From Gyrodactylus bullatarudis (taxonomy: Eukaryota > Platyhelminthes > Monogenea > Gyrodactylidea > Gyrodactylidae), in assembly GCA_012064415.1 (NCBI GenBank), contig SSNU01000295.1:62001-126000 (forward strand): DNA of 64,000 bases. The letters are read 5' to 3'. Below are positions 5,901-54,500 of this stretch, piece by piece. The first letter of the stretch is position 1, and every line of letters begins with the position of its first letter. The translations under genes were made by a program, and so were the position numbers. The notes beneath the pieces are model-generated. The model ran no database searches. It had not been told where the DNA came from and saw nothing but the letters and a program-made list of their open reading frames with translations.

Positions 5901-8900
5901 TATGAGAAAAAAAGAACCATAAAAAGTGATGTTTTATTTCAGTCTTTGTAACAAAAAAAAGAAAAAAAAGTTTTGGAAATCTATTTTTTATAAAAGAGAA
6001 TAAAATCTTTTCAAACAGAAAATAAAAACAATACAAGAGCACTTTTTAAAACTAATTTTCCGTTTCATTATTATTATACTGTATTAGAATTACTAGATCA
6101 TTGTAGTTTTTTGGTAACGATCAGACCAACGAGAATTTGTCAGCTTTTGTCGTTTCTTTCTAGGCTTACAAAAAAAGGAAGGGAAACATAGCATTCTGAC
6201 AGCAATTAATGCTGTAATGAAGTTGGGAGTTTATGAATTTTACTAAAATTTCAATATCTTTAATCGATAATTGGAGAATGATCAGGATTTCAACAGGTTC
6301 AAATTCAAATCATTTGAAGAAATAATTTTGTAAGAATAATTTCATTTATTCGAACTTTGAGCGGATAATTGCTGTTTCAAATTAATTGATATGTGAGACC
6401 AAAATTAGAAAATAAGGTAAAATTTTTAACCTCATTTTTGTACCAACTTTCCTGATAGAATTATCAATTCTAAGCATTATTTTTTATTAAAGCATGTGCT
6501 GAAAATGCTTCACCATTATGTCATTCAGTTTTAAAAGTCCAGAATTTTTCAAATCCCCACTCAATTTTTAATGAAGTTTTACTACACAATGACTAAAATC
6601 ACTTACATTTTTTCTTTAAAAATAGTAATATTATCATCAAAAGGTCCTCTATGATTAATTTCGTTGTTTTATCATGTAAAGCTAGTTGACATGAAAATGA
6701 GAATTTACTTTTTTTACAAAAACTCAATATTTTTCTCAGGATAGTCAAGAAAAAATTTATTTTTCGAATTCCAACATAAAATGAGCCAATAAGTTGTGGA
6801 AATTAAAAAAAATTTCTGAAAAAATTCAATCTGACCAAAATTAGACCGTTTTTCGAATTTTTGAAATGCGCCAAATTTCCACTTTTTCAACTGTTGTCAA
6901 AATTTTTTATCGATTTCAAAGATTTGAAGCAGTTAAATGCAGATATTCGATATCAGCATCAGACAAAGAATTCGATCATCTTCATGTCAATTAGGTGTAT
7001 GTGGGATATTGTGGGAAAAATAGGCAATGCCATAATGGAGGATGACTTTCACAATTTGAAAATATGTAAAAAAAGATCTGAGTACTAAATTCTATCAGAA
7101 AAGTAAGTACTCTCGTGAGTTGTTCGGAGAAAAAAAATTTCACCCTAGCCTATTAGACAACAAACTTTTATTATTCATAGACCTCGAATAATCAAAGTTT
7201 CAAGAAAACAACAAAAGTTACCAGCTAAAAGTTCAAGAGATGTTCGTACTTAGGATTATGATAAAATCTCCAAAAATTTTATAACTTCTTATCAACTAGC
7301 TTCATCTGGAATTTAATTGATACGATACTTTATTGAAATTCTATTAAACTACAGATTAAATTGAATGAATAGTCAGGAAAAATTACGGGTTGTAAAATAT
7401 GAAAGACACAAATAGGGGTAGACATTTTACTGACTATGATACTGTAAGCCCTCATCTTTGGAAATTAAGTCTGATTTCACTTAATTAATTGGAGATTGAA
7501 AGGTTTCGATGATTGGTAAATTGTCAATATTGAAAATCAATGAGAGTTTGACATTTTTCAACAAGTATTCTAAAACACTAAATTTATTTCTTATTAATCA
7601 GGAAAATTTTAAATTAAAATAATCAATTTAAATTGTACTTGAGAAAGAAAGAATGGATAAGTAAAAGGTTATCACTAATTTATGTTAATATCTTCTGAAT
7701 TCTGACTAAACTCTTTATAAATAGCGTTTTCTTCAAGGTATTACCCGACAGACACTTGAAATTGATTTTAAATAGTTGATTGACTCTAAAGCTTTATGAA
7801 TCATATTTAAAACTTTTTAATGATTGAAGGTAGAGATAATTTAAGAGATAATTCTTAAAGTAAGAAAAAAAAACAAAATTAGAATTCTGAGTTAGTCATT
7901 TAAGGTTTAATTAGAGCTACTGTTAGATATATACTACCAGAAGTCTCATAAGAGACTAGCCTCCCTGGGCGGTTCTAGATGAGGCTGATAGTTGGCTAAT
8001 AGGGACGGTTCTTTTTATCGACATACTTGAACATTATTCAGGATCGTATTATAGCAGAATAATCATTAGAGTATAGGCTTACTGACGATCCCTAATAAGG
8101 GTGAAACTATAGTATGAGTTTTTGCTTAATCTTTGGATGTGTAACATTAAATGTAAGTTTCATTCTGAATCAGTCATTTGACGTTTGACTAGAGCTAGTG
8201 TAAGATGAAATAGAATAGTTCCACAATTTGGTCAGAAAGTTCTAGAACAAGTTTTATAATAAGACTAATTATAGGCGTTCTCATTCGTATTGTTAAGGAG
8301 TGAGAAACTCAAATGACTAAAATGTTCAGGATCTTTGGGATTATGTAGCTAACCCTAGTTTGTACACTGTGAAGCCTGCTTTTCAGAGAGATACCAAGCC
8401 ATCCATAAAACAAAAAAGTATGTTATTTTTGCCCGGAAAAAGATCACAGATTTTGCTTTGATTTGAGAGAGTATTCTATTCGAAAACTTGAGTTTTATTG
8501 AGTATAATTATAATTATAGAAGTAAAATTCAATGAAAGATGTTGGCGCGGATTTGAAGTTCACGATTTTTAATTGAAATTTTTTGAGAGAGAGAAACGTT
8601 TGAATCTCGGATTTTAGTTGAGTTGATTCCAATAAGAATATAGCGCTTTTATTTCGTGGCATACTCATAAGCTTAAACATGCCAGATTTATATAAAGAAA
8701 ATGTGTACAAAATATTGGTTTTGAATCTGATTGGTAATTTTTTGATGCGTGAGTCCCTTTATTTTACATGTAATAGATTGTTGTCGTAATTAAATTGTAA
8801 TATAAAAGCGCTATATTATCATTACTAATTGGCAGCACCTTCTTTTTAATTCAAGTTTTGTATGTGAGAACGCAGTAAGAAACATTTAGCTCACCTGTAG

Positions 8901-14900: not shown

Positions 14901-17900
14901 TGGTCCTAAAAATGAACTTCTGAGCACCCTCTCATTTTGAAATCAACGAAAAATTCAGCTCGAAATTCAAAAAATGAAAATTAGCGCTAATTTGAAATTT
15001 TGAATTTCCAAATTTTTTTGTTAAAAATGATCATTTCCCAAAATAATTTAATTCAAATTTTTGATTAAAAACTTATAGATTCCCATCTTCATATTCAACC
15101 TGTAATTTAAAAGTTAAACTTGAACCTTTTGAATTGGTGCAAACCAATTTGTTTTTATAACAGATTAAAAGGCATTAAATTATAAAAGGGAAATGAACAT
15201 GGCAATCGATACACCTATCATCAATGTTTTTTTTCCTTGATAATAAAATGGTATTACGCGTGGATAGAAATGATAATATTGGACCATTTATTACGAGGTA
15301 AGGTAACTATAATATTTTATAGAAAATTGTAATAAAAATTGTTGATAAACAATAAAACATTTTGGATAATGTATTCAAACTTTTTTATAATTATCAAGAT
15401 TATGGTGCAACACTATAATTTATTAGATGTATGGACTGTGTAATGTTTATATTATACATGCAATGTCAATAAATAGGTAACACCTTATTTTAATATCAAT
15501 AAATGATAAGAAAGATGAAAAGAATTAAAATAATCTCATCTACAAATAATGTATTGAGACCCATCTCTGGTCAGAGTGGATAAACATTAGATTTAAGAGG
15601 CCTAGAGAAAAGGTTATCTTTAATTAAGCTGAATAGTCAAATCACAAGTGGGGTTAATTTTTAGAAAAATTAGTTAAACATGCTAATTTCATGAGAGAAC
15701 AAACTTATTAATCGAAAATAAAGGTTGAATATAATATGAGAAACTCAGGAATTTTTTCGCGTAATTTGATTAATATCTACTCATTAATTATGAATAAATC
15801 TAGATTCCTTATTTCAAAAATTCTCTTTAAGGTACGGTTTATTTGATAAGTATTATTTTTGAGCTGAGTTACTGATGACCCACAAAACTCAGACTGCAGT
15901 CAGAGAGCATTTAAGAACATAATGCCTAAGTTCCCCCACCCCAAACTTTGAAATTTTTTGCAAACCATCAGGGAAACATCTTGAAAGCAGCTGAAACGTA
16001 CACCTCAATGAATTTGAACCAAATCTTTGTGTCCACAAGGATCATATAAAGCCATTGAATTTGTTAAGACCAAGAGAGAATCAATCAAAAAGATCCCAGC
16101 CCCCTTTAAGGAAAAGAAGACGATAAGAAATGAACCAACAGATTAACCAGTTCATCTCAGCAAAAAAATGATTGAATCGTAAGATTTAATATTTGATTAA
16201 CACAATCTATAAAAGGTAGCAGGAATTAGTAAAATTTTAAATTATATACCAGAGATTCACGTAATTTTGTATATACGTCCGAAAATCCACTTATTTGCAT
16301 TTAGAATTTTGGAAGAACTATTAGAAAACTAAGGACTAGGACAAAAGAACATCTTTCAAAGAACACTTCAGTTCATGAACATTTGACGGACAATAATCAT
16401 AATGCTGACTATTCCAATTTTTCAGTATTTTATAAGAACTCAGGTGATGACAGCACTGATCGCTGGATTAAAGAGAAATTCTTTATTAATACTATTAAAC
16501 CAGATCTGTGTGTTCAAAAGAACTATACATATTCTCTTATATTACCCTGGCTTATGCGAGCTTTATCACCTTTTTTCTCTTCAATTTTGCTATTAATGTT
16601 GAGTTTTTGGGTGTTTTTTCAGCTTGCATTATATTCTTTTATGAAATTTGCTTCTTACTATTTTCATTCTTATATTTGTAATTTTATTATTTCAATGATT
16701 ATATTTATAATTTCCATTTTTAAAGTAACACTGCTGTTGAAGCTTTAAGAAATACGTATTCAGTGTAAATAAAACTCTTGTTTTTTCAATACTTCAAATA
16801 AATTCTAAATTTTAAATTAGGACCAATAAAGTCATCAGTATTAAACTGAGGAGTAAGAGATGTAAGATCTTTAATAAGGAAAATATCTTCATATCCATCG
16901 ACAGATTCATTGAAATAAAAAGGTGTACATTGTATAGATATTAGAATTAGATAGAATGAGATCACGGATACTGTAGAAATGGAATTAATGATATTGTAAA
17001 TCTAATCAAAATTCACTCTCTCCCTCTGTCTAGTTCGTTCTCTCATCTTGAAATGATTTTTTTTTTCATTTTTCAACACACTCAACTACCTTTCAAATTC
17101 ACCTCGATTTTTTTCATGATTTAATCATCATCAGAAATCCTATGGATTCTTTGAAAGGGAAAGAGGAAAATATTCTTTTTTTCATAATACACTCAAACAG
17201 AAGGAAAAATAACATGAGAGAAAGATAGAATTCTAATGTGAAAGTATGTTTTGTGAATTCGTCGACGAAAAATATTGTTGAGTATCCTGTCATTGGTCGA
17301 TGGATTCTTCGATAATTTAAGAATTTTTGGCCATACAGGTTATATATTCTTGAAAAAAGTTTATTGTCCTTAGATAATGAAATAATAAAGCGCAAGTTTA
17401 ATAAGAGTCAAATACATTTTTGACTACACTTCCTATCAAATTTTACACAGTTGACTGTATTCAAATTCCAATTAAAATTTTAAGAATTTCTTCCACATTT
17501 ATTTGACTACAGTTAATTTAGATTTTACATTTTTGACTATAAAATATCTAAAATCTTACAAAGGTTATTATATTTTTTATTCAAATGGCTCGAAAAATTA
17601 ACAAATGAGGATGAATACTTTGTAATGAAAATACTTTCATCTGATGTTTTCAATGTTTAAGAACTAATATATATTCAAGGCAAAAATTTCTATTTGGATT
17701 CTATTAAAGATAATGAACTTTTAAGCTTAAAGATAAATCGAAAACGAGGTCAATCCAGGTTGAAATGACTGAAACCAAAAAAAGAAGTTGTTTAATGAAT
17801 AATATTGATAAAAATTCAATTTTAATGCATTAATTGAAACGTAGATCATAGATATTTTATAGTCAAAAATGTAAAATCTAAATTAACTGTAGTCAAATAA

Positions 17901-39280: not shown

Positions 39281-39546
39281 TTATTCGATTCGAGTTGAAA
39301 TAAAATCATACAATCGTTTACCATAGGCATCAGGACCTATTGTACGATTCGATTGTTCATGACCAATCTTGACAGTTTGAAAGGTCTTCTTACGCATTCC
39401 ATATCTGGTTAGGATGTCGATGAGGCCGATAAAGTAAACACAGTTCTTTTCTTTCCTACTAGTGATGCCATAAAATTCAAAGTCTGTCATTAGTTTGCCG
39501 TTGTACTGCTGGCGCAATCTTGGACTATCTGGAGGCGTCAAGTTAC
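39281..39546 (-). CDS. PIP4K2: PIP4K last exon
   Basis: TTCATTCAG acceptor, then TPPDSPRLRQQYNG, FEFYGITSRKEKNCVYFIGL, IDILTRYGMRKKTFQTVK and GPDAYGKRLYDFISTRIE before the stop codon. TPPDSP, the GLIDILTRY helix and the C-terminal Y..R..DFI are the type II kinase C-terminus. Confidence 0.95.
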
Positions 39547-42500: not shown

Positions 42501-45500
42501 AAAAAAAAAATTTTAGGAATAAGCACAAGGTAGAAATTACATTGTTTTTAGACATTAAACCTACTAGCTAAGTGTAACCAGTGACCACACTTAGCTAGTA
42601 GGTTTAATGTATAAATTTTAGGAAAGTTATGGCATATTTCAAATCTAGCGATGGCGCTGAATTCCCATTTTTTTGAACTTTGAGTTGATAAATTTTGTTG
42701 ATTTAAAAGTGAGAGAATGATCAAAAGTTGATTTTTAAGATCATGATTAGTCAAAGAAATCAAATATGCTAATTCAGATTTTGAGAATCCGTCCATCTTC
42801 GTGTGAAAATCGAATTTTGATTTTTTGAACATTTTCACTGCTTGAAAATCGATGAAATTTTGATGATTCAAGATGCCTGGAGATTGGCGAGTCCATTGAA
42901 ATTTACATGGTCATAATCGGTTTCTTTGACTAATCGGGATCCTAAAAATCAACTTTTGATCACTCTCTGACTTTTAAATAAACAAAAATTATCAACTCAA
43001 AGTTCAAAAAATGGGAATCCGGCGCCATCGCTAGATTTGAAATATGCCAAAACTTTCCTAAAATTTGTTTTTTTTCAAATTTTTTTTCTTCAGATCCTGA
43101 AAGTGGAACCTACGATCAAGATTCCAAAATATCTTGATCAAATTCGATTTCTTGATGAAAAAATTCATAATTTTGTAAAAAGCATAAATTCCCATCTTCA
43201 TATTAATTAGGTGTACTTGTGGTAGATAAAAACAGCCTAAAATTCCAGAAATATTTGTTATTGTGCTCTTTTGACAACTCAAATAAGTTTAAATGAACTA
43301 AATTAGTTGTAATTAACGTGAAATTTTGTTATTAAACTAAAGCTAGTTGATATGAAGATGACAGTTCATGGTCTAGATTTTAAAGTACAGCTTAATCTTA
43401 AAAGGGAAAAATTTTTAATTTCGCGTTGGTGCCTACTTTTTTGTTATAGATATTTTTTATCATAACCCTTTCAGGTCCATGGCCCATATGTTGGCCCAAA
43501 TATTAAACCTGAAAATTTTTGTAGAAATAAAGATCCTATAAATAAAAAATACACACTATTCATCAATCTTCCCGAAAAATGTTGGACCAAAAGTTATTTT
43601 ATTAGAATTGATTAAATTCATCTTATTAATTGAAAAAAACCTAAAATTACTCGTGCGGTCGCTTGAAAGTAGATAGGGAAAATGTATTGAAAAGTGTCGA
43701 AAATTTTTTAAAAAGGTTTTTAGATGATTTAAGGTTTTATTATTCATCTATAATTCATTCTGATTCCGAATATGTATTTATATTCGATATATGAACTCAT
43801 TAAATAGACTCGGACCTGAAAGGGTTAATGTTCAAGCTGTGTTTTACAAAATCTGGACGTAAGAAAACTTTTAATCCTGGATGAAGAATTGCAATATATT
43901 CTAAGAACATAAGTTTCCGTCTTCATGTCAACTAGTTTTATGTAATGATGGGATAATGTTTAAAATTGAAATGATGTCTTGATTGATAGTGCAATTTAAA
44001 CATAGGAGTATTTCATTGAGAATATTATACAGTATATGAAATACTTATTTGTTCAAGAACTTTATATTGAATGAATTGAATAATCTCCATCCATGTCAAT
44101 ATTCATGTTTGGGCTAGAATAATTTGAACTGCTAGCTTGATCTAAAGAAATTGATTTTTGAATCAAAATGAAGTTGAGATATATTTTGGCAAATCAAATA
44201 TAATTTATTACAACTTAGAATCTTATTACTAGCCAAGCTGAGTTGAGGGACCTAAATTTTTCAATGTTTTGACATACATTGAGATCGCGTCTACTATTCT
44301 ATAGTCATAAGATGGATCTCAGACCAGAATAACAGTTCAAACCATTCTAGCTGTAAAAAATTATTTTGTGTAGGTGAAATGGCATATAAACTCCGTTATA
44401 TAGGAAGGAGACGTAAATATGACTCGATATTGTGATTGGATGATGTTATATAATTTAACCTTCTCACAGAGAAAGGGACCTCTTCGCACCAGGATTTTGT
44501 TTCTACGATAGAGTAATTCTGAATGAAAAAATAAGTGTTAAATCAATTTTAAATTTCGGTACGAGAATATTGAAGGTTGATCGTATTAACAGAGGGACAC
44601 CTCTTCTGAAAGCTTCTCCATTTAAGATGTTTTTAAAACAAATCACATTTGAGTAAAATGGTGTATTAATCAATGCAAAGACAATGGGGAGAGTGGAATT
44701 TCTTTACACAGATGAAAGAAATAGTTTTTTAACAAGTCATTTCCAGTCAATCACGCGTTCTAAGCAACCTCAGAATGTGAATAAATATGGCTAGGAGAGA
44801 CAGATGGGTTGCAGCACATAAACATGCGACTTTCATGCATTTCCACAGGAGAAATAGTAAACTTTTAGTAATGATTAAAAATGTCTTTTACTACTTTTCT
44901 ATGGAAATAATTTGAAAGAAAGGAGAAGAAACTCTGTCATTCCAAAAATAAAGAAAATGTGAAAAAATAAATAGGAGCCAACCGGTTGATTTGAAAATAG
45001 CGAATAAAAAAATCAAACTCATTTCAAGAGAGACCCATCTGGCTGAGTAGTGAGAAATGAAAATCTTACATTTAAGACTAGCAGTGGTAGTGTTGTTACT
45101 AATAATGATGGGATTATTGCTAATTTGGTTTGTTGTGGGATGATTTGACTTTACTGAAAGAGAAAATGGTATGAAATTTATTTAAATTTATTCAATTTTA
45201 GATCATAGTTGTTGTTTTGAGGAAATAAGTAATGTAATTTTGGCAGAAAAAAAATAGTGTTTGAGTAAAGCTAATAATAAAAACTAGGAGAGAGGGTGGA
45301 AAAAAGGATTTACATTTATTTATCAAGATGAAGTTGTATGGAGATTTGTATCTTTTAGAATCTAGAAATGAAATTGTTCAATAAATTCCTGAAAATTCTT
45401 AAATTTTGACTACAGTATAGCAAAACAAATGTAACACTATTATTTAGTAGGGTAATACAAAATTTTATTTTCCATATTCACCTAGTTTATAAGAAGATAT

Positions 45501-48500
45501 GAATTTGTGATATTTTTTCCTCAAGAAATCGAATTTGATAAAGACTTTTTGGAACCTAGATCATGAAGCCCACTTTCATAACATGATGAAAAAATCAATT
45601 TATAAGATTTCAAATCTCGAGTTAGCGCCAAATTTCAATTCTTGGAGTTGAATTTAAGGATCCCGAAGACAAAGAAACCAAACATTTTGAATCAGATTTT
45701 TGAGAATCGCCCTATCATCGTTTTGATTTTTTTGATCATTTTCCCTACTGGATATCGATTCCTGGAAAATGACGATTTCAATAAACTTTAATCGTGATAA
45801 AAGTTTTTCTTGTCTTATGGTTATCCTTAAAATCAATATTTGGTGTCTCTCTTTCACTTTAAAATCAACTAAAAAATTTATCAGATGACGACATAGGACA
45901 AAACAAGATAACCAAATATTTTTCCCAAGTGTAACATTTTAATTTTTTTCATGAAACCACACTTTACTATCTCAGATCTTATATAGTGAATCAAAGTGAA
46001 AAATTTTTACGTGCTGATGAGCGGAAATCCCATTTTCCCTTAAATCATTAAAATTCGCTTATTTTCCAAGCAATAATTTTTTGAAGACTTAATTTTTACT
46101 ATTAACCCTCTTTTTAAATAAAATTTTGCAAAAATCTCAAAATTGTCATTTCTAGTAGATAAATTCATTGAAAGAAATTTTTTCTTTGTCATTTTTAATT
46201 GTATAAACTCAAAAAAAACTCGAAAACATATGGTGAAGCCAATTAATATGTAGATGGAAATTTACAAGATACTCAATAATTTTCAACGAACAGGTATATA
46301 AATACTGTATTTCTGGATCTGAAATTAAGACTATTTTTCGAATTTCAACTTTAACAAACTATAAGCTCAAACATTTTCTCGTCACATTCAAAGATTTGAC
46401 TTGAATGACAACTGATATTCGGGATCAAATTTTTGAAAAAAACATTCGAATATGATAATTTTCATTTTCTACAAGTAAAATGAGCATGAAAAAGTTTTTT
46501 TGGTTTTGATTCGATTGGAAAAGTTTAGATGAGACCAGACGGAATAAGAGAGATAATCGTTAAAGAAAATAAATAAATAGTACGGCACTTATACTTACAA
46601 AGATTGACTAGAAATATTCCGTTCTAGGTGCTTAGGTAATATATCCCACACGAACGTCTTATTTGATAATGGATTAGCACATGTCGCTGAATATTACAGC
46701 TTACTAATTACTAATTAGTAATTAGTAATAATAATGGATCCCACCGAGACTGGTACGAAAGAAACTCACAAAGCATTTATTAATAATCTAAGTATACATA
46801 AATGGTAGACATATACGCGCGTTTCGTCCTCTTTTGGACTCGTCAGTATGCCACGACCTGGGATTTGAACCTAGGACCTCTCGCACTGTAGTATTCGTTC
46901 TTTCCATTAAAATTTACCTATGAGTTAAGAATCAGATAACAGTCGATCAGAGGAAGAAAACAAGTTGGAAGCATTCATCATTTCCTCACAGAATAAAGAA
47001 TGAACGAAATAAGGAGAATTTTTCTCTTTTCATGTCTAAATAATTCATAAAAACTATACATATCTATTCCATTCAGGGATAGATTTTATGTGATTTCCAC
47101 TCATACATCCTGATGAGAGAGAATCTGAATAATAAATATACTCTTGAATAAATGTTTCAAAATTATTTCAAAAAAATCCATTCAAATTATCAAAGAGGAG
47201 AGGGAAGAACAAAAATCACTTAATTTTCTTTGAAATTCACAAAAATTAGTTGAAAATAATGTTGAGTATGCCTTCGATTATTCGAAAGAATTGAAGTTCT
47301 TAGATGATGCGAGGCAAGAAGCCCTATTAATTTCCACATTGAATATACAATGGGAACTATATATCTTTTACAGACGAGGATTTATTCCAAAGATGACCCC
47401 AAACTTCCTTTCAAACTTGTGTCTTGTACAACATTGGGATGTGTTATCAAGAAGAAGAAAATCTTGCAGATATATTTAATCCTTTTCAAAAATAAGTAAT
47501 GGAGTAGAATAAGTGTAGAAATATTTTCCCTGCCCTAAAATTTTTCCAAGTCCAAAAAAGTAGGTCTTGTGTACCTATTAGTATGTCAGTTACACATTCC
47601 TTTTCTATCTCTCTTTGTTTGATGATGTAAGCCCCTTATTATTAACCCTAAGAAATTAATAAAAATAGCATTTTCAAATCTAAATATCTTTGGTTAGAAG
47701 AAAGATATTTGAACATTTCAAAATGCTATCAGTATTAGAAAATTACGCTCTTTAAGATGATCTAAGTTTCAGAATTATGTGTTGAATATTAAGCGAGATA
47801 GAATATGATCAAATCACCTGCTATAATTTTGATTTACTCGAGTGAAAAGTTTCACATTTCTTTATTAAAAACAAAAGTTACATAGTTATTTGATCCTGGT
47901 AACAAGTGTTCCCCTTAAGCTCATTTCCTTTCAGAAACAAATTATATATTTCTTCGCTTATTATTCAACACATAATTTTGAAACTTAGATCATCTTAAAG
48001 AGCGTAATTTTCTAATACTGATAGCATTTTGAAATGTTCAAATATCTTTCTTCTAACCAAAGATATTTAGATTTGAAAATGCTATTTTTATTAATTTCTT
48101 AAGGTTAATAATAAGGGGCTTACATCATCAAACAAAGAGAGATAGAGAAGGAATGTGTGACTGACATACTAATAGGTACGCAAGACCTACCTTTTTGGAC
48201 TTGGAAAAATTTTAGGGCAGGGAAAATATTTCTACACTTATTCTACTCCATTAACCAAAAATATATTGAGCAGTTTCGTTCCAATGATGGCATAAATATG
48301 TATAATCAAAAATGAAATCCGGATATCATTTAGAATGGATTAAAAGACTAAAGAAATTAAATCGGAATTCTCTATGTAGCCGACACAAGTTCTAGAAACA
48401 GTTGAAGTCGGAAGTTGAAGCTTGATAATGCAGTATTTGGATATGGGGAAAAAAGAAACTCATCAGTATTCAAGAACTAGAGGAAAGGTTCTACGGTATC

Positions 48501-51500: not shown

Positions 51501-54500
51501 TAAGACTTTATAACTTTGATCTGGATCATGATAAATAATTTTTTTTAACATTTTATTAATCCTCGGAGCCACAGTATCCTTAGAAAAAATAGACTTTTTA
51601 GGACTTTTTGAGGCCCTAATTATAATACTAATACATAAGAGTGAGAAATTAGATAAGCCAATCAATTATATAAACCTGGCAATAATAATCAAGATAGCAT
51701 TCTGAAACCATTGTAGTTATTCCAAGTAACAGAGAAAATTTTTCATGTCAATAGATTTCTATTGGATTATTTTTTGGAAGTCAATCAGGGTACTTTTATT
51801 AGTTTGGCGATTTTTGAAAGAAAGGGTTCAATGGGTTCAGAACACTAATTCAAGAGCAACAAAAGTACTTCAAAAATTTTTCGCCTAAACAACAGCCCAT
51901 GATTTAAATCAAGAGGATCGATACGAATGTTCTATTTGAGCTAGAATAAATTTGCTTGTTTTAATATAATGCTAAAGAGATTTAACAAAATTATAACTAT
52001 TGCATCATAAAAAGGTTTATGAATTGAATGCTAGAAATTTCTTCTCAAATTTTGTTCCCTTGGAAATCCAAATCAAGAGGTAATGAACAAAAGTGAATTG
52101 TTTCCAGGTGCAACTACACAATTGAGAGCTACCCAATGGATAAGAGCTACTTAAAAATTCATAAGAAAAGATTGGCAAGTTTTTCTCAAACTTCACGGTC
52201 AAATTCGAATTCTTCGTCTTATGATAATCCAAAGTATCAGCATTTTGTTGCTTTGAATTCTCCAATAGATAAACATTGGAAAAGTAGAAATTTTTCGTCG
52301 TTTTGAAATTCAAAACATTTTCTAATTTTGGCCAAATTTAATTTTTTCAGAAATTATTTGATCAACTCATGGGTTCATTTCATTTCAAAGTAAATTTTTT
52401 TCTGGCTATTCAGAACAAAATATGGTTACACTGGTAGGCCAAAATACAATTTTTACATTGGATTTAGGGACCTCTAAAATTCACTTCTTGATTCCTTTTT
52501 GTAATGCAAAATTTTTTAAATTGTATTTATGGTCACTTTTTACTGGGTTGAAATTTAATAATTGCAGTTATGGTTAGTCCTCGCTGTAAATATGTAAAGT
52601 TTTTCTTAACTGGAAATTACATAATTGAGTAATGCTAATTACTATAAATCATCAGAATCTTTTGTTTTGCCCTATTATTTTGGGTAAGCGCTGCTCTAAT
52701 CATTAGCCGTTCTCCTTTGATATTATGAAACAGTTTTACACTTAATCACGTCAAAAAATTAGCACGAACAAAATATTTGACTTTTGAAATTCTAGAATCT
52801 TTAACCATGTGGTTATCTGACTGAGAAGTAGAGAAAATTATTTTTCCGGCAAGATATACTTATAAGACGTAGAGTTTCACAGAATTCTCTTCTATGAGAG
52901 AAGAACAGTTATTTGAGAAGAGAGACTCAAAGGAAACATAATCTTTTCAAATGTAAGGAAATGAATTTCAATTAGAGATCTCGACTGATTGATTGATGAT
53001 GTGAAATGGGGGATATGTTGATACACATGAGCATTTGAGAAATACTGAAAGAAGGGGTATAGAAATTAAGATCAATTCAGAGTGGATTTTAGTGAGTAGA
53101 AAGGGATTTTAGTCTTGGAATAAAAAAGCGGTAACTATGACGGTAACATATCGTTTTATTAAATATAGAATAATTTTAGTAGAGGAGTAGAAATTCATTA
53201 ATTTTTGCATCAGTAAGTTATAAGTACAGTCGTGTTATATAATGATTTAAGTGGACTAAACTCTCTTTACAGATTTACAAGTACCTATCTATCACATAAA
53301 GTATTAATGATTTGATAAACGGAAGTATGATAATTTAATCGCTCTTTTTGTTTGAACTTAGTAGATGTAATCAAAAGAATCTATTCTTGGAGATAAGAAT
53401 AAGTGTCCTACAGTCCTCTCTAGATCAACACGAAACCACATCTCAAAGAAGAGATTGAATATTTTTTTAAGAAAGAGAACTTTGATATCTTAGTTCATCC
53501 CACTTATAGTCCTGATCTTACTCCATCTGATTATCGTCATTTCAGATTTCTAGAACCTTTTCCAAAGACCGAAACTTTAAAATCAAAAGATGAGATCAGA
53601 AATGAATTCAATTACTTCTGAATCTGAAGAATTATTTGCTGACGGGATTAGACAAATACAAATTTTTTTTTAATTTGTATTCAGTAGGCTGGGCCTTTTT
53701 TTCTTGAGCAAATCATTCTACATGAAATTATTAATTATCGCAAAACCTAATAACTGTATTTGGCCTATTAGAAGGTTGATGAGTATGCTTTTAATATAGC
53801 GCTTACTCCTCAAAGTTTCGGCCTGGTTTTCATCAAATCAACTGAAATTCAAACTCACTGATTCAGGATCCTTATTAACAGAGGGGAAGTTAATGGTGAG
53901 GGAACTATTCAAGTTCAAAGCAGATTTGATATCTGTCATATTCATGGCAGTTTCAATTTTTGAATTATTATTAATTTCTGAATTGTTATTATCATTGTTG
54001 AGCATGGTTGAATTTAATTCAGCTCTGTGCAAAGGGGAACTGCTTGATTCATTATTTGGGATTATTTGAGGTGTTGCATCGTCAAAGGATTCATTTTCGG
54101 TAATACACTTTATGTTGTGTATTCCAACAATGATACTATAGTCAATGAGGTTGTTCTCTTCTAAAAACTAAAAAAAACAATTCATAATCAATCTAATCAG
54201 TTATATTTTGTATTCTTTGAACCTCCCAAGCCAGATTTGGTAATAGGAGAAGATAGAATCTTGATACAAATTTGTAATCAGCATTAGATCCATTCATAAA
54301 TAAAAATCATAAATTTTCAATATCGATGATCGATTCTGTAAAATCCTGAATATTTTGGCTATCAATATTTTCCAACGTTTGTACATAAGTTACCTTTGAG
54401 TATAAACGTTGAAAAAGTAGAGATAGTAATTCCAAAAATATTAATTTTGAACCAAGTTCTTCAGGGAGGTGTTCGGCATAGATTGACTATAACGTTGATA

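Follow-up and report, generated by a model that had tools for sequence, protein, structure and literature searches.

The locus considered here raises the question of whether a hammerhead ribozyme motif in an intron of a PIP4K gene acts on the transcript of its host or was brought there by a mobile element, and by what machinery such an element would have moved. We searched the window, that is, the whole 64-kb stretch of DNA that was analysed, with cmscan, and a single match reached any gathering score. It was to RF00163 (Hammerhead_1), at 46852-46808 on the minus strand, over the full model length (E 4.2e-6; cut-off 34 bits). The following features locate the motif and its host gene.

46808..46852, minus strand: type I hammerhead ribozyme motif (RF00163, 38.3 bits)
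46813..46814, minus strand: predicted cleavage site, after GTA, from the Rfam alignment and established hammerhead chemistry
39296..39466, minus strand: PIP4K exon 3′ of the element (PF01504 profile positions 228-286, 40.5 bits)
53958..54170, minus strand: PIP4K stretch 5′ of the element (PF01504 profile positions 151-221)

The covariance match, being above the gathering cut-off, bears out the hammerhead that an earlier note on this DNA had claimed from the letters alone. The CTGACGA and GAAA core segments, stem II (GTCC/GGAC), the stem III and loop ACGCGCGT and the GTA site were all as that note had described them. Its stem I was right in the GGT/ACC pairing and the internal loop, but CATA/TATG was too short: the stem is GGCATA/TATGTC, six pairs including one G-U, with GGT/ACC beyond the internal loop. 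Stem III reads ACGC/GCGT. The motif thus has the core CUGANGA...GAAA, stems I to III, an open stem I and a predicted cut after NUH, as in type I hammerheads. With up to three mismatches allowed, the core pattern was found at 2 sites in the 64 kb against 0.01 expected from shuffles, the site in the PIP4K intron being exact and the other, at 8082-8107, degraded. The latter, on the plus strand, reads CTGACGA-TCCC-TAATAA-GGGT-GAAAC, has three mismatches and lies below the Rfam threshold; in its stem II one pair is altered on both sides and another is lost.

Judged by its sequence matches, the host gene encodes a type-2 PI5P4K (PIP4K) and lies on the minus strand. The exon at 39296-39466 matched 17 PDB sequences, and all 17 are named type-2 PI5P4K or older synonyms. 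The stretch at 53958-54170 scored 25.1 bits, under the cut-off of 27, with one stop within the match. Since minus-strand PF01504 stretches flank the ribozyme on both sides, it is intronic and in the sense orientation to PIP4K; together with the PDB names, this confirms the position proposed before.

A genome search for further copies, which had been suggested as a check, located the exact core at 243 places in the 77-Mb genome (77.3 Mb in 471 contigs; pattern CTGANGANTCCN6GGACGAAAC), and the reversed control gave 0. An Rfam family search of the genome returned at least 57 hammerhead matches, 29 of them above the cut-off, with 73 of 11180 candidates scored; the Rfam hammerhead search gave no match in 14 control genomes. 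As to the host, its mitochondrial COX1 (C13) was 90% identical to a cluster headed by Gyrodactylus albolacustris, with Macrogyrodactylus and further gyrodactylids and monogeneans next in order, as for a Gyrodactylus-like flatworm. Two of three AAA codons in this COX1 fall at what we take to be the expected N positions, which fits the flatworm code. Among 100 listed of the 243 core sites, loop II was TAATAA in 62 and AAAAGA in 24. Nearly all of the copies inspected, which came from top-scored or first-listed places rather than a full census, fell into two families of non-coding units. Family A, to which the window copy belongs, has the loop II AAAAGA and mostly GTA at the cut site, and family B has TAATAA and mostly GTC.

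The guide units, which are approximate, are 379 nt (A) and 369 nt (B) long. Both carry Pol III-type boxes, with the A box at 61/62 and the B box at 105/106 in A/B; next come the hammerhead (130 in both) and its predicted cut site (after 162/160). In family A the boxes are TGGACGAGTGG (A box) and GGTTCAAATCC (B box), and in family B they are TGGCCTAGTGG and GGTTCGAATCC. An alignment of the two guides rose above chance only at the boxes (z 5.2) and the hammerhead (z 10.2), and the head (z -0.9), body (z 1.8) and tail (z 1.4) were not significantly alike. Neither guide contains four T in a row. The word tRNA-like rests on the boxes, since a search of the box region at four loci gave no Rfam match to tRNA with E up to 1, and since the family A version of the A box differs in one position from what we take to be the consensus.

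Variation within the hammerhead follows the families. Of stem I pairs scored in 39 A and 26 B copies, pair 3 is A-T in 29 A copies and G-C in 22 B copies, and pair 4 is C-G in 26 A copies and T-A in 26 B copies. Both pairs have thus been swapped on both sides between the families, so that pairing was kept through double changes. All six stem I pairs are present in 19/39 A copies and 17/26 B copies. We collected 71 hammerheads, 66 of which could be scored at the cut site. The base there was A in 36, C in 2 and G in 1 of the family A copies, C in 22, A in 3 and T in 1 of the family B copies, and A in one other; it was A, C or U in 65/66 and G in 1/66. GTA is therefore no oddity of the window copy, as A stands at the cut site in 36/39 family A copies. 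The predicted fold of a family B dimer showed no clean double hammerhead, unlike that of family A.

The copy in the PIP4K intron and a second, smaller insertion in the window can be placed on these guides as follows.

46572..46892, minus strand: truncated family A hammerhead unit (unit positions 84-377 of 379)
46861..46871, minus strand: B-box-like GGTTCAAATCC, just upstream of the hammerhead, at the same position as in family A copies
42518..42615, no strand assigned: head-to-head pair of family B 3′ ends only, 98 bp, mapped to the guide
42508..42519, plus strand: left copy of the 12-bp target-site duplication AAATTTTAGGAA
42613..42624, plus strand: right copy of the same duplication, AAATTTTAGGAA

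The window copy of family A is 87% identical to the guide, keeps the B box and has the long, tail-bearing 3′ end; starting at unit position 84, it has lost the A box. Its flanks hold no clear target duplication. The predicted minimum-energy fold of the monomer (-8.0 kcal/mol) lacks the hammerhead core, and two copies together are predicted to form a double hammerhead with an eight-pair stem III (-30.1 kcal/mol). The 98-bp family B insertion consists of unit positions 359-302 on the minus strand followed by 292-330 on the plus strand, one end with the tail and the other without. Within 42508-42624 the 12-bp duplication is perfect, and the insertion copied almost nothing besides two start sites.

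The same anatomy recurred across the genome when the guides were mapped to the loci. Many insertions are head-to-head pairs in which both outer ends are the 3′ end of the unit and the inner junctions vary. The outer ends form two classes about 35 nt apart, at 340-345 and 373-379 in A and at 330-333 and 350-369 in B, with some scatter; BLAST may misplace an end by several bases, and the peaks at A 376 and B 352 mark where the fetched sequence stops in the set of loci chosen by their tails. For counting, the classes were set after seeing the data as short 330-352 and long ≥365 in A, and short 315-335 and long ≥343 in B. Seven duplicate loci were dropped beforehand, and L001-L008 were excluded as repeats. 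One long and one short end were combined in 30/32 A pairs and 11/15 B pairs, or 41/47 of the pairs with both ends classed, the exceptions being two A pairs and one B pair with two short ends and three B pairs with two long ends. A further 28 pairs stand outside this count, with an unclassed end (13 A, 5 B) or a censored end (2 A, 8 B). At loci not selected by tail, long/short pairs made up 13/15 in family A against 7.4 expected by random pairing (P 0.003) and 5/6 in family B (P 0.10). At tail-chosen loci the partner end was short in 17/17 classed A pairs, against 62.5% short in single-ended copies (P 3e-4), and in 6/9 classed B pairs.

Words of at least 7 bp common to both flanks were found around 21/66 insertions (31.8%), and shuffled pairings gave 4.3%; this count of target duplications leaves out the 60 loci chosen by tail (L110-L169). 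Words of 9-13 bp were found at 13/66, and 12 of these 13 lay around inverted pairs. Given the one-sided tail and the shared flank words around pairs, an inverted pair is best read as one insertion event. A MITE or foldback DNA transposon was also considered for the inverted ends and was rejected, given the variable inner junctions and the tail that distinguishes one end from the other.

Nineteen segments reached to within 15 nt of the unit start. Twelve of them continue into the tail of an upstream unit, six end at an inverted neighbour and one ends at the flank. In each of the 12 tandem joins the tail of one unit meets the head of the next across 0-11 nt, and none of them contains coding sequence. 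The tandems were only partial in the loci inspected, and no same-strand hammerhead pair about one unit apart was seen by eye among 100 listed of the 243 sites. Taken with the lack of four T in the guides, the 12/19 run-on segments point to a template RNA that was probably multimeric or circular. A footprint of the cut site was also sought as a sign of the template, with 5′ ends expected at the cut. At the tail-chosen loci only 1/51 A and 1/53 B segments ended within 2 nt of it; without such a pile-up, there is no genomic trace of cut linear RNA as template. In an unfiltered list, 5′ ends of family B clustered near the A box, at unit positions 58-76 (15/93 segments), for which a stop of the reverse transcriptase or a transcript start are candidate causes.

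The earlier note had inferred that the ribozyme came with a retroelement, and had pointed to Penelope-like elements as carriers of hammerheads with such a minimal stem III. A retroelement carrier, the minimal stem III and a connection to Penelope all held, but the carrier is no Penelope-like element (PLE). It is instead a non-autonomous unit of about 379 nt with Pol III-type boxes and no room for a reverse transcriptase. A PLE encodes a reverse transcriptase (RT) and a GIY-YIG endonuclease, and the 379-nt and 369-nt units are far too short for an RT. What the insertions do have is the one-sided tail, inverted pairs with duplication and partial tandems of Penelope-type mobilisation. The Penelope link lies in insertion structure and not in shared sequence.

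A Penelope-type gene is present in the genome, which had 19 GIY-YIG matches, few of which were inspected. The GIY-YIG stretch on C159 (E 9.7e-4, above the cut-off) lies in a 732-aa open frame, with an RT piece (L171) in frame upstream of it. The motifs of this piece are ones we take to be Penelope-like. Among its relatives in the database are proteins of Schistosoma and Trichobilharzia that bear the name reverse transcriptase, and its database relatives carry PF00078 and/or PF28514; the piece itself matched no Pfam family, and a PDB search returned nothing relevant. C159 was absent from the RVT_1 list, which covered the best 150 scored of 1528 candidates. Penelope-type protein pieces were found near some copies (L003/L011, L027, L032, L063, L075/L025 and L079). 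At L003 ~1708-1869 (equal to L011 808-969), the 3′ side of a family A copy runs into Penelope-type coding sequence, and this junction may reflect template switching or the insertion of the copy into a PLE. Within the window, decayed stretches at 15881-16553 on the plus strand resemble the C-terminal part of the Penelope-type protein, one with 42% over 99 aa and one with 31% over 83 aa.

The PLE 3′ regions compared with the units (L170, 601 nt, and part of L025) had no significant stretch in common with A or B (best E 0.16), and an autonomous PLE with a 3′ end common to the units was not found in the PLE regions inspected. In the PLE 3′ region, L170 (minus strand) and L025 (plus strand) share a conserved stretch that contains CTGATGAG and CGAAA and lies some 70 nt ahead of a likely start codon. 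This combination prompted a search for a hammerhead there, which gave no Rfam match.

We consider it probable, at about 0.72 for the full proposed cycle, that the motif belongs to a non-autonomous retroposon unit mobilised Penelope-style. Each unit has the A and B boxes of Pol III type, then a type I hammerhead right after the B box, a body and the 3′ end. It would be transcribed from the internal boxes or by read-through, and as the guides have no T4 stop, the RNA could run on into the next unit. The multimeric RNA would then be cut by its hammerheads. With a self-complementary stem III, they may work best when two of them pair as a double hammerhead, and the resulting monomer may become circular, as the retrozyme papers would suggest. 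A Penelope-type RT/GIY-YIG enzyme would cut both target strands, and reverse transcription would start on each strand from one of two sites about 35 nt apart near the 3′ end of the unit. Joining of the two cDNAs would give head-to-head pairs, one tailed end, partial tandems and duplications of 9-13 bp. Such products are observed in the genome, and the enzyme behind them would presumably be of the Penelope type.

Two published articles (PMC7229834, PMC7761336) regard PLEs as strong or likely candidate movers of animal hammerhead retroposons, on the grounds that the two kinds of element co-exist and have in common the type I hammerhead and the tandem arrangement. PMC11167929 describes a Penelope-like enzyme that acts on both target strands, cutting and extending each, and that starts reverse transcription at two adjacent sites, which explains an optional tail of 30-40 bp, a signature there termed unique to PLEs. 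Hammerhead mutants left insertion in vitro unchanged in the same study, and the rarity of cut-site ends in A and B agrees with that result. PMC3846280 describes pseudo-LTRs in inverted orientation, only one of which bears a tail (31 bp), together with partial tandems and target duplications of 8-10 bp, and the A and B insertions show all four of these features.

Copying by a LINE from linear Pol III transcripts, as of a classical tRNA-derived SINE of the Sm-alpha type, is an unlikely and already disfavoured source of these insertions. The order of A and B boxes and then a type I hammerhead would suit it, as would the 5′ ends of family B near the A box, at unit 58-76, and Sm-alpha and Sj-alpha are SINE-like with hammerheads, Sm-alpha being related to tRNA-Gln (PMC2770079). 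It conflicts with outer ends that are both unit 3′ ends, usually with a one-sided tail and one pair of target-site duplications, an arrangement that twin priming by a LINE would not produce; nor would an internal Pol III start give segments that run into an upstream unit, as 12 of the 19 start-reaching ones do. The insertion pattern itself would be accommodated if A and B were no independent units and were solo pseudo-LTRs of PLE families with coding copies elsewhere, since hammerheads, inverted pairs and partial tandems are all described for the pseudo-LTRs of PLEs (PMC3846280 and PMC11167929, in extract), and most of the 19 GIY-YIG matches lie outside the few inspected. The inspected PLE 3′ regions are unrelated to the units, however, and 12/12 tandem joins leave no coding part in their gaps of 0-11 nt, so that we rate this somewhat lower still. 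A guide match in 3/30 RT loci (144, 28 and 27 nt) says little here because those loci hold mostly other kinds of RT.

A functional intronic ribozyme, whose sense hammerhead cuts the PIP4K pre-mRNA and tunes expression, is the least probable of the readings weighed and would come as a surprise. The window copy retains every core base and six stem I pairs in spite of only 87% identity to the guide, the motif is in sense orientation in the intron, and conserved intronic hammerheads occur in amniotes (PMC7761336, in extract). Most hammerheads of invertebrate retrozymes self-cleave efficiently, according to the extract of PMC7229834, so that cutting by a monomer is conceivable. However, the window copy is one among hundreds, its stem III has two pairs, and the core is predicted to form from two copies and not from the monomer; a weak helix III often prevents monomer cutting (PMC7761336, in extract). 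Cutting of PIP4K RNA of any consequence by the predicted ribozyme is thus unlikely, and the window copy is most likely an old-looking, single, truncated product, neutral in its intron.

The Penelope-style retroposon unit favoured here can be set beside three known systems. Like Sm-alpha and Sj-alpha of Schistosoma, A and B have a flatworm host and a hammerhead in a short repeated unit, which in Sm-alpha is related to tRNA-Gln (PMC2770079, in extract) and in A and B is tRNA-like in its boxes. A and B form two families with unrelated bodies and had no Rfam tRNA match in the 4 loci searched, and their insertion ends are of Penelope type, a feature in which Sm-alpha may differ. Metazoan non-LTR retrozymes share non-coding units of 170-400 nt, the type I hammerhead and tandem joins, and platyhelminths are among the hosts of retrozyme-type repeats (both from the extract of PMC7229834). 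Retrozymes seem to be without promoters and without a motif pointing to a helper, as far as the extract of PMC7761336 goes, unlike the A and B units with their A and B boxes and PLE-type junctions; only partial tandems were found for the latter. PLEs of the Penelope/Poseidon clade, as described in the extracts cited above, resemble them in the hammerhead, the one-sided 30-40-bp tail, inverted pairs, partial tandems and target duplications. They differ in that the units contain no RT or GIY-YIG, have the hammerhead elsewhere than at an ORF start and share no sequence with the inspected PLE regions.

The carrier is thus of a known kind, a hammerhead retroposon, in a new combination of promoter boxes, hammerhead and Penelope-type ends. 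A link to PLEs has so far been proposed mainly from shared ribozymes and tandem repeats, and the insertion pattern of A and B suggests further support for it. No such link at the level of junctions was reported among the top-listed open-licence papers, judged by title or the start of the abstract. Whether PLEs are parasitised by the hammerhead retroposons of flatworms, and by extension also by retrozymes and Sm-alpha, seems to us evenly balanced; if so, self-cut, circular or multimeric hammerhead RNA would be copied by the PLE enzyme from both ends of the target. The mechanistic link to PLEs is the part most worth pursuing. As A and B end with the tail termed unique to PLEs in the extract of PMC11167929, the question of the helper can be put to a direct test in which purified PLE protein is combined with unit RNA. 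If true, the two-site tail at A and B would give the helper of these elements its first support at the level of junctions, replacing mere co-occurrence.
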